Positions 32,501-35,875 of a DNA stretch of 64,000 nt are shown here, one piece after another; the first letter of the stretch is position 1; the number at the start of each line of letters is the position of its first letter. The position numbers were made by a program, and so were the translations under genes. The notes under the pieces are model-generated. The model had not been told where the DNA came from and did not search any database. It saw only the letters and a list, made by a program, of their open reading frames with translations. The DNA lies in NCBI RefSeq assembly GCF_000975035.1, contig NZ_BBRA01000001.1, positions 1,259,184 through 1,323,183 on the forward strand, in the 5' to 3' direction. Origin of the DNA: Demequina flava (GTDB lineage: Bacteria > Actinomycetota > Actinomycetes > Actinomycetales > Demequinaceae).

Positions 32501-32516
32501 GTCCGACATTCGGCGC

Positions 32517-32555
32517 GTCAGCCCCGGGGAGTCGGACAGACACCCCGGGGCTGAC
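32517..32555 (+). terminator. Strong hairpin after fba
   Basis: GTCAGCCCCGGGG (32517-32529) and CCCCGGGGCTGAC (32543-32555) form a 13-bp perfect stem with a 13-nt loop. There is no T-run, which is common for actinobacterial terminators. Confidence 0.75.
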
Positions 32556-32678
32556 GTACGTCCGGCCGATGCGCGCGTCGCCTCCCGTATGAGGCGTCAC
32601 TGTGTGGTCGGATAAGACGGCGGGACACACCTGCCGTACCAAGCCCCCGGCTTGAACCGGGGTGAGGGGAGAGGGCGC

Positions 32679-33971
32679 ATGCCCGGAGTAGTAATCGTCG
32701 GAGCCCAGTGGGGCGACGAGGGCAAGGGGAAGGCCACTGACGTGCTCGGTTCGCGCGTCGATTATGTGGTGAAGTTCAACGGGGGCAACAACGCGGGACA
32801 CACGGTCGTCATTGGCGACCAGAAGTTCGCGCTTCACCTGCTCCCCTCGGGCATTTTGACGCCGGACGTCACGCCCGTCATCGGTAACGGAGTGGTCGTC
32901 GACATCTCCGTGCTGTTCAGTGAGATTGATGCGCTGATTGAGCGCGGGGTTGACCCGTCCAAGCTGCTCATCTCCAACGCCGCGCACGTGATTGCGCCGT
33001 ATGCGCGCACGCTCGACAATGTCACTGAGCGCTTCCTTGGCAAGCGCAAGATCGGCACCACCGGACGCGGCATTGGCCCGGCCTACGCCGACAAGATCAA
33101 CCGTCTCGGTATCCGCATGGGCGACCTGTTTGACGAGCAGCTGTTGCGCGACAAGATCGAAGGCGCGCTCGAGCAGAAGAACCACATGCTCGTGAAGGTC
33201 TACAACCGCCGCGCCATCGAAGTGGACGAGGTTGCTGACGAGCTGCTCCAGTACCGCGACCGCCTCGAGCCCATGGTCACCGACACCTCGCTGGTGCTGA
33301 ACCAGGCGCTCGACCGTGGCGAGACCGTCCTGTTCGAGGGCGGCCAGGCGACCATGCTGGACGTCGATCACGGCACCTACCCGTTCGTCACGTCCTCCAA
33401 CGCGACCGCCGGCGGTGCTTCGACGGGTTCTGGCGTGGGTCCTACGCGCATCGACTCCGTCATTGGCATCGTCAAGGCCTACACGACCCGTGTGGGCGAA
33501 GGCCCCATGCCGACCGAGCTGTTCGACGAGGACGGTGTCAAGCTGCAGACCATCGGCGGTGAGTTCGGTGTCACCACCGGGCGCACGCGTCGTTGTGGCT
33601 GGTACGACGCCGTGATTGCCCGCTACGCCTCGCGCATCAACGGGCTGACGGACCTCGTGCTCACCAAGCTCGACGTGCTGACCGGCTGGGAGTCCATCCC
33701 TGTCTGTGTCGCATACGACGTGGACGGTGTCCGCTACGACGAGCTTCCGCAGGACCAGGCCGACTTTGCCGCTGCGAAGCCCATCTGGGAGAACTTCCCC
33801 GGGTGGACCGAGGACATCTCCGGATGCCGCAGCTTCGACGAGTTGCCCGCCAACGCGCAGAACTACGTCAAGGCTCTTGAGTCGATGTCGGGTTGCCGCA
33901 TCAGCTCCATCGGTGTGGGCCCTGACCGCGAGCAGACCATCGAGGTCCACGACCTCATCCACGCTCGCTAA
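32679..33971 (+). CDS. purA: Adenylosuccinate synthetase
   Basis: The enzyme condenses IMP and aspartate using GTP in AMP synthesis. The 430-residue protein shows the GTP-binding [11 protein letters not shown] at 8-18, [12 protein letters not shown] near 32-43, [14 protein letters not shown] near 127-140, [24 protein letters not shown] near 219-242, and [12 protein letters not shown] near 298-309. ATG 32679 follows GAGGGGAGAGG; an in-frame ATG at 32652 would add residues unlike the family. A small hairpin (CCCCGG/CCGGGG) sits just ahead of the ribosome binding site. A terminator follows directly, so it is a single-gene unit. Confidence 0.98.
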
Positions 33972-33984
33972 GTCGTCACGCAAG

Positions 33985-34035
33985 CCGCCCCCTTCCCCTG
34001 GCCGTACATACACGGCGGGGATCGGGGCGGTTTTT
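33985..34035 (+). terminator. Terminator after purA
   Basis: CCGCCCC (33985-33991) pairs with GGGGCGG (34024-34030), immediately followed by TTTTT. Confidence 0.8.
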
Positions 34036-34091
34036 GCGTCTGGCCGTACTTTTCCGTCGAAGGTCGCGGAACGTTCTACCTCGGCCCGTAA

Positions 34092-34442
34092 CTAGAACAG
34101 GGCTGTGACATCGTCGATCCATGTCGTGACGACGGTAATCGCCCGTGGGTTTAGGCGGTACAGGCGCTCGCGTCCGTCGCGTCCCATGGAGACCAGGCCC
34201 GCTTTCTTGAGCACATTGAGATGGTGTGACCCGCGAGCGAGTGAGATCCCAAACGCTTCGGCTACCGCGAGGGCGAGGTGCGTCGCGGTGGCATCGTCCA
34301 CTTCTTCGAGCAGTTCCAGAATGAATCTGCGCGCGGGATGCGTCAGCGCGGTCAGAACTTCGTCGAGAAGGGCGTCCTGCGCAATGTGCTCGAGGGCTGG
34401 CGTCGCGGCCCGCCCGGAGTGCATACGACGGCTGCGCGGCAT
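34092..34442 (-). CDS. ArsR-family winged-helix transcriptional regulator
   Basis: The 116-residue protein is an ArsR-fold regulator: LLDEVLTALTHPARRFILELLEEVDDATATHLALAVAEAFGISLARGSHHLNVLKKAGLVSMGRDGRERLYRLNP. The SHHLNVLKKAGLV recognition helix is typical. It contains no cysteine and no metal-binding CxC, so it is unlikely to be a classical metal sensor; the inducer is unknown. The start at 34442 is chosen because an ACGAGGT site precedes it. A longer frame from 34496 would translate through a perfect 42-bp palindrome that is better explained as its operator. It diverges from purD. Confidence 0.85.
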   Translation of the reverse strand: MPRSRRMHSGRAATPALEHIAQDALLDEVLTALTHPARRFILELLEEVDDATATHLALAVAEAFGISLARGSHHLNVLKKAGLVSMGRDGRERLYRLNPRAITVVTTWIDDVTALF

Positions 34443-34450
34443 GAGTGACC

Positions 34451-34492
34451 TCGTTTCGTTCATTCTCGGAATTCCGAGAATGAACGAAACGA
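34451..34492. promoter_or_regulatory. Perfect 42-bp palindrome, probable ArsR-type operator
   Basis: The left arm TCGTTTCGTTCATTCTCGGA is mirrored exactly on the right about the centre between 34471 and 34472 (GGAATTCC). It begins 9 bp upstream of the regulator's start codon and covers its leader region, as expected for autorepression. It lies about 97 bp from the purD start. Confidence 0.75.
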
Positions 34493-34575
34493 GCACCGGC
34501 CTCCCGCGGAGGCGAGAACGTGTGGAGAAGGCATCCGGCGCAGCAACCTGTGGAACCCGGTTGTGAGTGGCTCGC

Positions 34576-34581
34576 TAGACT
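34576..34581 (+). promoter_or_regulatory. -10 box of purD, leaderless type
   Basis: TAGACT ends 7 nt before the GTG at 34589; no Shine-Dalgarno sequence lies between them. Confidence 0.55.
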
Positions 34582-34588
34582 CGCACGC

Positions 34589-35875
34589 GTGAAGGTACTC
34601 ATAGTCGGCTCCGGAGCCCGCGAGCACGCGATCGCCCGCTCCCTCCACCTCGACCCCGCTGTCACGGAACTGCATGCAGTCCCGGGCAACCCGGGCATCG
34701 GCCAGATTGCGCAGCTCCACACCGCGGATCAGAACGATGGCGCGTCTGTGGCCTCGCTCGCAACGAACCTGCGGGCTGACCTCGTCATCGTGGGGCCCGA
34801 GGCGCCGCTGGTAGCCGGTGTCGCCGACGCCGTGCGCGAAGTGGGCATCCCGTGCTTTGGGCCCACCGCCGAGGCCGCGATGCTGGAAGGGTCCAAGGCG
34901 TTCGCGAAGGACGTGATGGCCGCCGCAAAGGTGCCGACCGCCGAGCCGCGCGTGTGCACCACCCGTGACGAGCTCGATGCCGCGCTTGCCGAGTTTGGCG
35001 CCCCGTACGTCGTGAAGGATGACGGTCTCGCCGCGGGTAAGGGCGTCGTGGTCACCGAGGTGCTCGACGAGGCCACCGCGCACGGTCAGGCCATTTTGGA
35101 CGCTGACGGCACCATCGTGATCGAGGAGTTCCTCGATGGACCTGAGGTGTCGCTGTTCTGCATCTGCGACGGCGCGACGGTGGTCCCGCTACAGCCGGCG
35201 CAGGACTTTAAGCGCGCGTACGACGGCGACGAAGGCCTCAACACGGGCGGCATGGGCGCGTACACACCGCTGCCATGGGCTCCGATCGACTTGGTGGATG
35301 AGGTCGTCACGCACGTTGCCCAGCCCACGGTCGACGAGATGGCCCGCCGCGGCACGCCATTCCAGGGGGTCTTGTACTGCGGGCTCGCGCTGACCAGCAA
35401 GGGTCTGCGAGTTGTTGAATTCAACGCGCGCTTTGGTGACCCCGAGACGCAGTCAGTCCTGGCCCGGCTCGAGACTCCGCTTGCTGGGGTCCTGCTGGCT
35501 GCTGCCGAGGGGCGACTGCACGAGATCGACCCCCTCGTGTGGAGCGAGGACGCTTTCGTGACAGTGGTGCTCGCGTCGCACGGGTACCCCGAGTCCGCGC
35601 GCAAGGGTGACCCGATCACGGGCGCCGATGACGCGGATGGTATCGACGGCGCGCACGTGCTTCATGCCGGAACGGCGATCGACGAAAACGGCGAGTTGGT
35701 TGCCGCGGGCGGTCGCGTGCTGTCGGTCATTGGTCGTGGCGAGACGTTGGCCGATGCTCGGGCGCTTGCGTACGAGGCGCTCGGCAAGATTGACCTGCCG
35801 GGCTCGCACCACCGCAGCGACATCGCGCTCAAGGCCGCCGATGGCGAAGCGAATGCACGGGAGGCGCTCGCCTGA
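34589..35875 (+). CDS. purD: Phosphoribosylamine-glycine ligase (GAR synthetase)
   Basis: This ATP-grasp enzyme forms glycinamide ribonucleotide, step two of purine synthesis. Features of the 428-residue protein are KVLIVGSGAREHAIA at the start, FGPTAEAAMLEGSKAFAK near 91-108, YVVKDDGLAAGKGVVV near 141-156, PAQDFKRAYDGDEGLNTGGMGAYTP near 206-230 and VVEFNARFGDPETQ near 272-285. The GTG start fits the family N-terminus and the -10 box 7 nt upstream. The stop overlaps the purC start (TGATG), so purD and purC are co-translated. Confidence 0.97.
   Translation: MKVLIVGSGAREHAIARSLHLDPAVTELHAVPGNPGIGQIAQLHTADQNDGASVASLATNLRADLVIVGPEAPLVAGVADAVREVGIPCFGPTAEAAMLEGSKAFAKDVMAAAKVPTAEPRVCTTRDELDAALAEFGAPYVVKDDGLAAGKGVVVTEVLDEATAHGQAILDADGTIVIEEFLDGPEVSLFCICDGATVVPLQPAQDFKRAYDGDEGLNTGGMGAYTPLPWAPIDLVDEVVTHVAQPTVDEMARRGTPFQGVLYCGLALTSKGLRVVEFNARFGDPETQSVLARLETPLAGVLLAAAEGRLHEIDPLVWSEDAFVTVVLASHGYPESARKGDPITGADDADGIDGAHVLHAGTAIDENGELVAAGGRVLSVIGRGETLADARALAYEALGKIDLPGSHHRSDIALKAADGEANAREALA

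Follow-up and report, generated by a model that had tools for sequence, protein, structure and literature searches.

The window, a 64,000-nucleotide stretch of the Demequina flava genome, contains a perfect palindrome (CTCGTTTCGTTCATTCTCGGAA/TTCCGAGAATGAACGAAACGAG) that sits between a gene for an ArsR-type regulator on the minus strand and purD on the plus strand, downstream of purA. It spans positions 34450-34493, that is 44 bp in 22 matched pairs with 22-bp arms and no spacer, one pair more per side than the perfect 42-bp palindrome described in the first-pass annotation. It ranks first of the 17 inverted-repeat pairs that a listing with distances of up to 60 nt gives for the window, and at the base composition of the window (G+C 0.65) the number of perfect dyads with 22-bp arms and zero spacer to be expected per window is only 2.7e-8. 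The locus comprises the following features:

32679..33971, plus strand: purA (adenylosuccinate synthetase), used as synteny anchor (ORF, Pfam).
34092..34442, minus strand: ArsR-type regulator (arsR), 116 aa, no Cys, with a predicted recognition helix at residues 68-80 (L-A-R-G71-S-H73-H-L...) (Pfam, AlphaFold2).
34449..34452, minus strand: GAGG, possible Shine-Dalgarno sequence of arsR; a palindrome arm contains three of the four bases (from the sequence, by inference).
34450..34493, no strand: 44-bp perfect palindrome, 22-bp arms, no spacer (inverted-repeat listing).
34458..34485, no strand: 28-bp dyad, the form in common with relatives (model R2, pairing statistics).
34463..34480, no strand: 18-bp predicted operator core TTCTCGGAATTCCGAGAA, with half-site positions 1-7 reading TTCTCGG (18-mer dyad scan).
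34576..34581, plus strand: TAGACT, 7 nt upstream of the purD GTG and putatively the -10-like element of a start of the leaderless type.
34589..35875, plus strand: purD (phosphoribosylamine-glycine ligase), starting with GTG and divergent from arsR (ORF, Pfam).

The ArsR-type ORF matches two Pfam families above their cut-offs, PF12840 (HTH_20; 30.9 bits, cut-off 27) and PF01022 (HTH_5; 26.3 bits, cut-off 22). In its AlphaFold2 model (mean pLDDT 87.1) the recognition helix spans residues 68-80, so that residues 71 and 73 are residues 4 and 6 of this helix. The solved structures nearest to the model are ArsR-type winged-helix (wHTH) proteins, with 3f6o as the best match (Z 13.7, rmsd 1.4, 88 aligned residues), followed by SrnR (7p6f, Z 13.3), HlyU (4ooi, Z 10.3) and NolR (4omy, Z 9.1). 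Translation probably starts at ATG 34442, which leaves 7 nt to the palindrome instead of the 9 bp given earlier; this start is uncertain because a second in-frame ATG falls within the palindrome. Counted from ATG 34442, the 116-aa product has no cysteine, as had been claimed, and no CxC metal/thiol site, which would be consistent with an inducer other than a thiol-held metal.

A consensus scan of positions 33950-34700 found no intrinsic terminator (G+C-rich stem followed by a T run), and at gathering score the only Rfam matches in the window are three tRNAs. With nothing over the palindrome in either scan, we set aside its interpretation as a terminator or an Rfam RNA. Two other structures were noted nearby and in relatives. 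A strong inverted repeat at 32516-32556 (18-nt arms, 94% complementary, 5-nt loop), in the gap between an ORF end (32500) and purA, is probably a terminator, and the purA-purD intergenic regions of three genomes whose loci have no ArsR gene (G064, G023 and G013; L181, L182, L183) contain long terminator-like stem-loops soon after the purA stop codon.

We then looked at the distribution of the half-site in the same genome. Searching for it in front of other genes, as the first-pass annotation had suggested, gave 48 matches to TTCATTCTCGGAA with at most two mismatches, against 5 for the reversed pattern. The best matches led to three further palindromes (B, C and D; A is the palindrome beside arsR), and a covariance model built from this genome's sites only (R1, later replaced by the model R2) led to a fourth (E):

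Site B, C2:242847-242874: between rarA and a gene for an MMPL transporter.
Site C, around C3:806982-807007: upstream of a FAS1-type dehydratase gene (FAS1_DH), imperfect.
Site D, around C3:283140: upstream of a flavin monooxygenase gene, imperfect.
Site E, C3:919597-919624: between dcd and a GH94 gene.

All five own sites (A-E) lie upstream of at least one gene start. Their core is nearly constant, and their outer arms vary on both sides, with two-sided changes in 5 of 20 pairs (four sequences). Because sites A and C have a common 16-bp flank, some own sites may be copies of one another.

With paralogues counted, the query protein (P0001) has matches at 1e-6 in 39 of 59 genomes. A profile of 13 homologues (A3), 12 of which are encoded beside purA or purD, detected matches in 37/44 congeneric genomes (threshold 1e-10). 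Between 1.8e-24 and 5.5e-19 the values jump, and the genomes above this step (19/44) are those that we regard as carrying this ArsR. All of them have purA and/or purD in the locus except G015. In one genome this ArsR type is encoded twice, at a distance of about 5 kb (G022:C10:61500-72500, L176).

Upstream dyads were sought with a motif-free inverted-repeat scan, an 18-mer TT...AA paired-arm scan and a reading of the intergenic regions. Poor conservation at orthologous loci had been named in advance as evidence against an operator; we found an 18-bp dyad with about five further partly paired bases per side upstream of the ArsR gene in 14 of the 19 genomes. The same three scans gave no accepted upstream dyad in G002, G007, G015 and G021, and the one upstream of the G009 gene is imperfect, with an indel. 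Fifteen 28-mers from these loci, two of them from G006, were aligned (A4); as these rows were chosen as dyads, their pairing statistics are not independent evidence. R2, the genus-wide model built from A4 and run on the 44 congeners, has stricter filters and loses weak matches. It detected dyads (E ≤0.1) in 16 of the 19 genomes with the ArsR gene versus 1 of the 25 without it, and, when training sites are left out, in 11/19 versus 1/25 (Fisher p 9e-5). G013 has kept a site and lacks the gene. Presence of the gene changed at least eight times on a purA tree of 40 genomes, and the genomes without it include the close relatives G008 and G049 (purD lies beyond the G008 stretch that was covered). 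After correction for the tree, the co-occurrence of gene and site keeps its direction and is not significant, with a mean of 2.6 concordant, 0.1 opposed and 3.3 not differing among six independent pairs.

We computed the co-variation between the recognition helix and the half-site. In the four genomes whose protein has His73 (G000, G050, G065 and G009), half-site position 5 is C or T in 14/14 half-sites, while it is A in 84/84 half-sites of the 12 genomes with Gln73 and in both half-sites of G013, where the gene is absent. This tally covers 50 of the 51 distinct R2 places; the Gln73 place G048:C1:128990 belongs to another ArsR-type gene. R2 could have found A-type sites in His73 genomes, because it is a single genus-wide model with A at position 5 in 11 of its 15 training rows. 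Among the 116 columns of the window protein, residue 73 is the only gap-free one that separates the C/T genomes from the A genomes (16/16). Sites outside the tally were also inspected. R1, unlike R2, picked up own sites C and D, and these have C or T at position 5; the FAS1_DH site kept in G065 has the base expected for its His73. The arsR dyad of G044 (Gln73) has the halves TTTCG and TTTCA, thus G at position 5 in one of them. In G009 (His73) an A-biased pattern, left out of the position-5 tally, detected two A-type dyads as well, one in a GC3-rich frame and the other apparently intergenic, with no paired flanks.

Residue 71 shows a comparable, if looser, relation to half-site positions 3-4. 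It is the only column right for 16/16 genomes on the presence of TTCT at the arsR site. Positions 3-4 read CT in 12/12 half-sites with the helix motif RGSHHL and CT or CC in 10/10 with RGSQHL, start with T in 28/28 with RVSQHL, and are mixed with RASQHL (CT in 2/46), so the residue-71 rule is not strict. On the purA tree, where 13 of the 40 genomes have both traits, residue 73 changed at least three times and residue 71 at least twice. Residue 73 and base 5 are concordant in all three independent pairs, too few for significance (sign test p 0.25).

There are precedents for helix residue 6: correlations between protein and DNA in the MerR, Rex and NrtR families involve it (PMC5045206). In Vibrio cholerae HlyU, Ser62-Gln63-His64-Leu65, an S-Q-H-L motif, lie on the recognition helix (PMC4330345); Gln63 is described as needed for DNA binding and reporter activation, and the Q63A protein is reported to give no rise in promoter activity. 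By the common S-x-H-L motif, HlyU Gln63 would be the equivalent of residue 73. HlyU is also presented as an activator with an imperfect dyad upstream of a promoter, possibly a further likeness, and differs from our protein in its 17-bp imperfect palindromic operator, its Cys pair and its target genes. NolR (PMC8960804) is likewise a cysteine-free ArsR-type global regulator of unknown signal in which a recognition-helix Gln reads A or T, and differs in its motif, (A/T)TTAG-N9-A(T/A).

More generally, the regulator resembles the ArsR/SmtB family (SmtB, CzrA, NolR, HlyU, SrnR, RexT) in its HTH_20/HTH_5 domains, its wHTH fold and the dyad beside its gene, and departs from it in the longer, gap-free 44-bp palindrome and the lack of cysteine. 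Neither its signature R-[GAV]-S-[HQ]-H-L nor the purA/purD linkage was seen in the 14 ArsR loci examined from other families. We had considered these 14 related loci for an out-of-genus test of the residue-base code; they turned out to be uninformative because their helix is different (SQPA.S[QR]HL), purA and purD are lacking within the 1.5-kb flanks, and their dyad, where present, is another one (TTATATAA in some). In other families of the order, three loci (L222, L233, L234) encode SRHL-type ArsR proteins (SQPA.SRHL) with an upstream dyad close to GTTATATAAC, a different half-site.

Residue 73 tracks base 5, sits at helix residue 6 and has changed jointly with the base at least three times; the palindrome is therefore very probably the binding site of the winged-helix ArsR-type protein from the adjacent gene, and as such an autoregulatory operator. 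This is also what the first-pass annotation had proposed, and the helix/half-site co-variation, the four other copies and the dyad in 14 of 19 genomes support it. A dimer would bind with each subunit reading TTCTCGG from one side of the centre, where position 5 (C/T) would correspond to His73 and positions 3-4 (CT) to Gly71. The four further palindromes, at MMPL/rarA, the FAS1-type dehydratase, the flavin monooxygenase and dcd, would very probably be bound by this ArsR too, and so a small regulon may be under its control. Judging from sequence, binding, autoregulation and regulation of the other genes are thus predicted, and the sign of regulation may be either.

The position of the sites bears on that sign. 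Measured against starts of the leaderless type, in which TANNNT precedes the ATG/GTG by 6-7 nt, the sites at purD, dcd, FAS1_DH, MMPL and DUF6318 are some 80-130 nt upstream, off the -10/-35 region. Such a position outside the core promoter could be that of an activator or of a distal repressor no less than that of a classical repressor. We dropped the idea of a fixed helical phasing to the start codons, as the centre-to-start distances are 81 nt (MMPL), 87 nt (FAS1_DH), 88 nt (dcd) and 117 nt (purD). Site turnover is high: within 200 nt upstream, the dcd dyad is present in 1 of 10 genomes (this one only) and the FAS1_DH dyad in 2 of 10 (this genome and G065). DUF6318 neighbours have a site in G022, G006, G044 and G015, and the sbcD and EngA neighbourhoods in three genomes each; in these neighbour sets Pfam was run on one or two members each, and N-terminal sequence served to match the others. 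We also observed a different long inverted repeat, made of AAATGGNNCCATTT-like dyads, ahead of FAS1_DH in G008 (L213) and G050 (L212), and in G065 (L215) a seemingly eroded repeat of this kind adjoins the ArsR-type site.

The length of the palindrome deserves separate consideration. Pairing is high to about 14 bp from the centre both in own sites and in those of relatives. At offsets 15-22 the five own sites have a pairing of 0.70, against 0.35 at offsets 25-40. For relatives the corresponding values are 0.40 and 0.39, taken over 30 pooled sites, namely the 47 R2 places outside this genome minus those of G006 (14), G013, G022 and G048 (one each). Since pairing in relatives is near background past offset 14, the extra arms are mainly a feature of own sites, and we abandoned selection on the outer arms across the genus as unsupported. 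The earlier statement that the palindrome is far longer than usual operators thus holds at this locus and does not extend to relatives, whose pooled sites are paired over about 28 bp only. There is a somewhat better than even chance that perfection and length beyond about 28 bp have no extra function and are mutational or due to shared descent, which would complement the operator reading. Template switching is reported to make and mend perfect stems (PMC8794818), and the outer 8 bp of each arm, outside the shared operator, would probably persist by such arm-homogenising template switching or by copying between sites. Against a lack of function, the own sites number only five, of which A, B and C are possibly copies of one another, single relatives have long arms that pooling hides (G062 and G048, 16-17 bp), and a second dimer on the outer arms is conceivable.

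Alternatively, the palindrome might serve mainly as an RNA hairpin that forms in the leader of arsR and masks the Shine-Dalgarno sequence. The predicted stem is indeed strong (-46.7 kcal/mol over 91 nt, z -5.4), as expected of any such palindrome, and it covers the GAG of GAGG. The end of the 18-bp core is 20 nt from the in-frame arsR ATG here and 18 nt in G062 and G065. These are, however, 3 of 14 dyad genomes; at least 42 nt separate the core from the likely arsR start in the remaining 11 (two of them, G050 and G059, have weaker in-frame GTG codons nearer to it). The block of transcription or sequestration of the ribosome site put forward in the first-pass annotation is conjectural. Similar dyads also lie upstream of leaderless-type starts, where they would fall outside the transcripts of those genes, and a hairpin leaves the link between residue 73 and base 5 unexplained, which makes this reading very unlikely.

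REP/BIME elements with their RAYT transposases are dispersed intergenic palindromes, and the palindromes described here share this dispersal. They could accordingly form a repeat family of that kind, with the arsR copy placed by chance or ArsR merely adapted to the repeat. In G006 (L094-L099, L104-L109), 13 of the 18 stretches extracted contain an amplified, imperfectly palindromic repeat of about 130 bp with conserved TCGTGTYCGCG-like flanks, and every copy carries two ArsR-type dyads that face each other, as in paired REP units. Sites are found between convergent genes (4/14 in G022, 7/25 in G006) or inside a called frame (7/25 in G006), counted on pattern-found sites with rough gene calling, and these are unlike a plain promoter regulon. 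The flank common to sites A and C and the co-varying outer arms of own sites would also suit repeats. However, Y1 transposase (PF01797) was found in 0/44 congeners by a search that was positive in 5/14 named genomes as a control, and we ruled out a RAYT-driven REP element as the main reading. The half-site base moreover tracks helix residue 73, the FAS1_DH, DUF6318, sbcD and EngA neighbourhoods keep the site in two to four genomes, and the dyad recurs upstream of the ArsR gene, so that we judge a repeat family improbable. A mixed possibility, to which we give a little more credit while still considering it unlikely, is that ArsR and the long intergenic palindromes are one co-evolving system in which the protein binds repeats and structures the chromosome or silences them. 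Genomes have from one to about 25 palindromes found, and 24 of 25 congeners without the ArsR gene show none. If true, ArsR would be a repeat-binding factor instead of, or besides, a small-molecule switch.

On the preferred reading, that of an operator of the adjacent ArsR, the regulator gains a defined predicted site and a candidate regulon of small size, together with a two-residue code (residue 71 for positions 3-4, residue 73 for position 5) that can be tested and would have changed repeatedly within one genus. To our knowledge, there are few ArsR-type proteins for which changes in specificity have been followed alongside the operators. Among titles and abstract openings, our search on ArsR operators, specificity co-evolution and actinobacterial ArsR regulons or RAYT did not find this system, and a search for Demequina with ArsR found nothing. 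What is new is the code, the regulon and its possible spread by way of repeats, whereas the system as such is not a new kind; the link between operator and repeat in one relative would let the growth of a regulon by repeat spread be watched. Finally, in G048:C1:126500-131500 (L165) we observed an ArsR-rhodanese fusion gene whose start overlaps its own perfect dyad, CTATTCCATGAATTCATGGAATAG.
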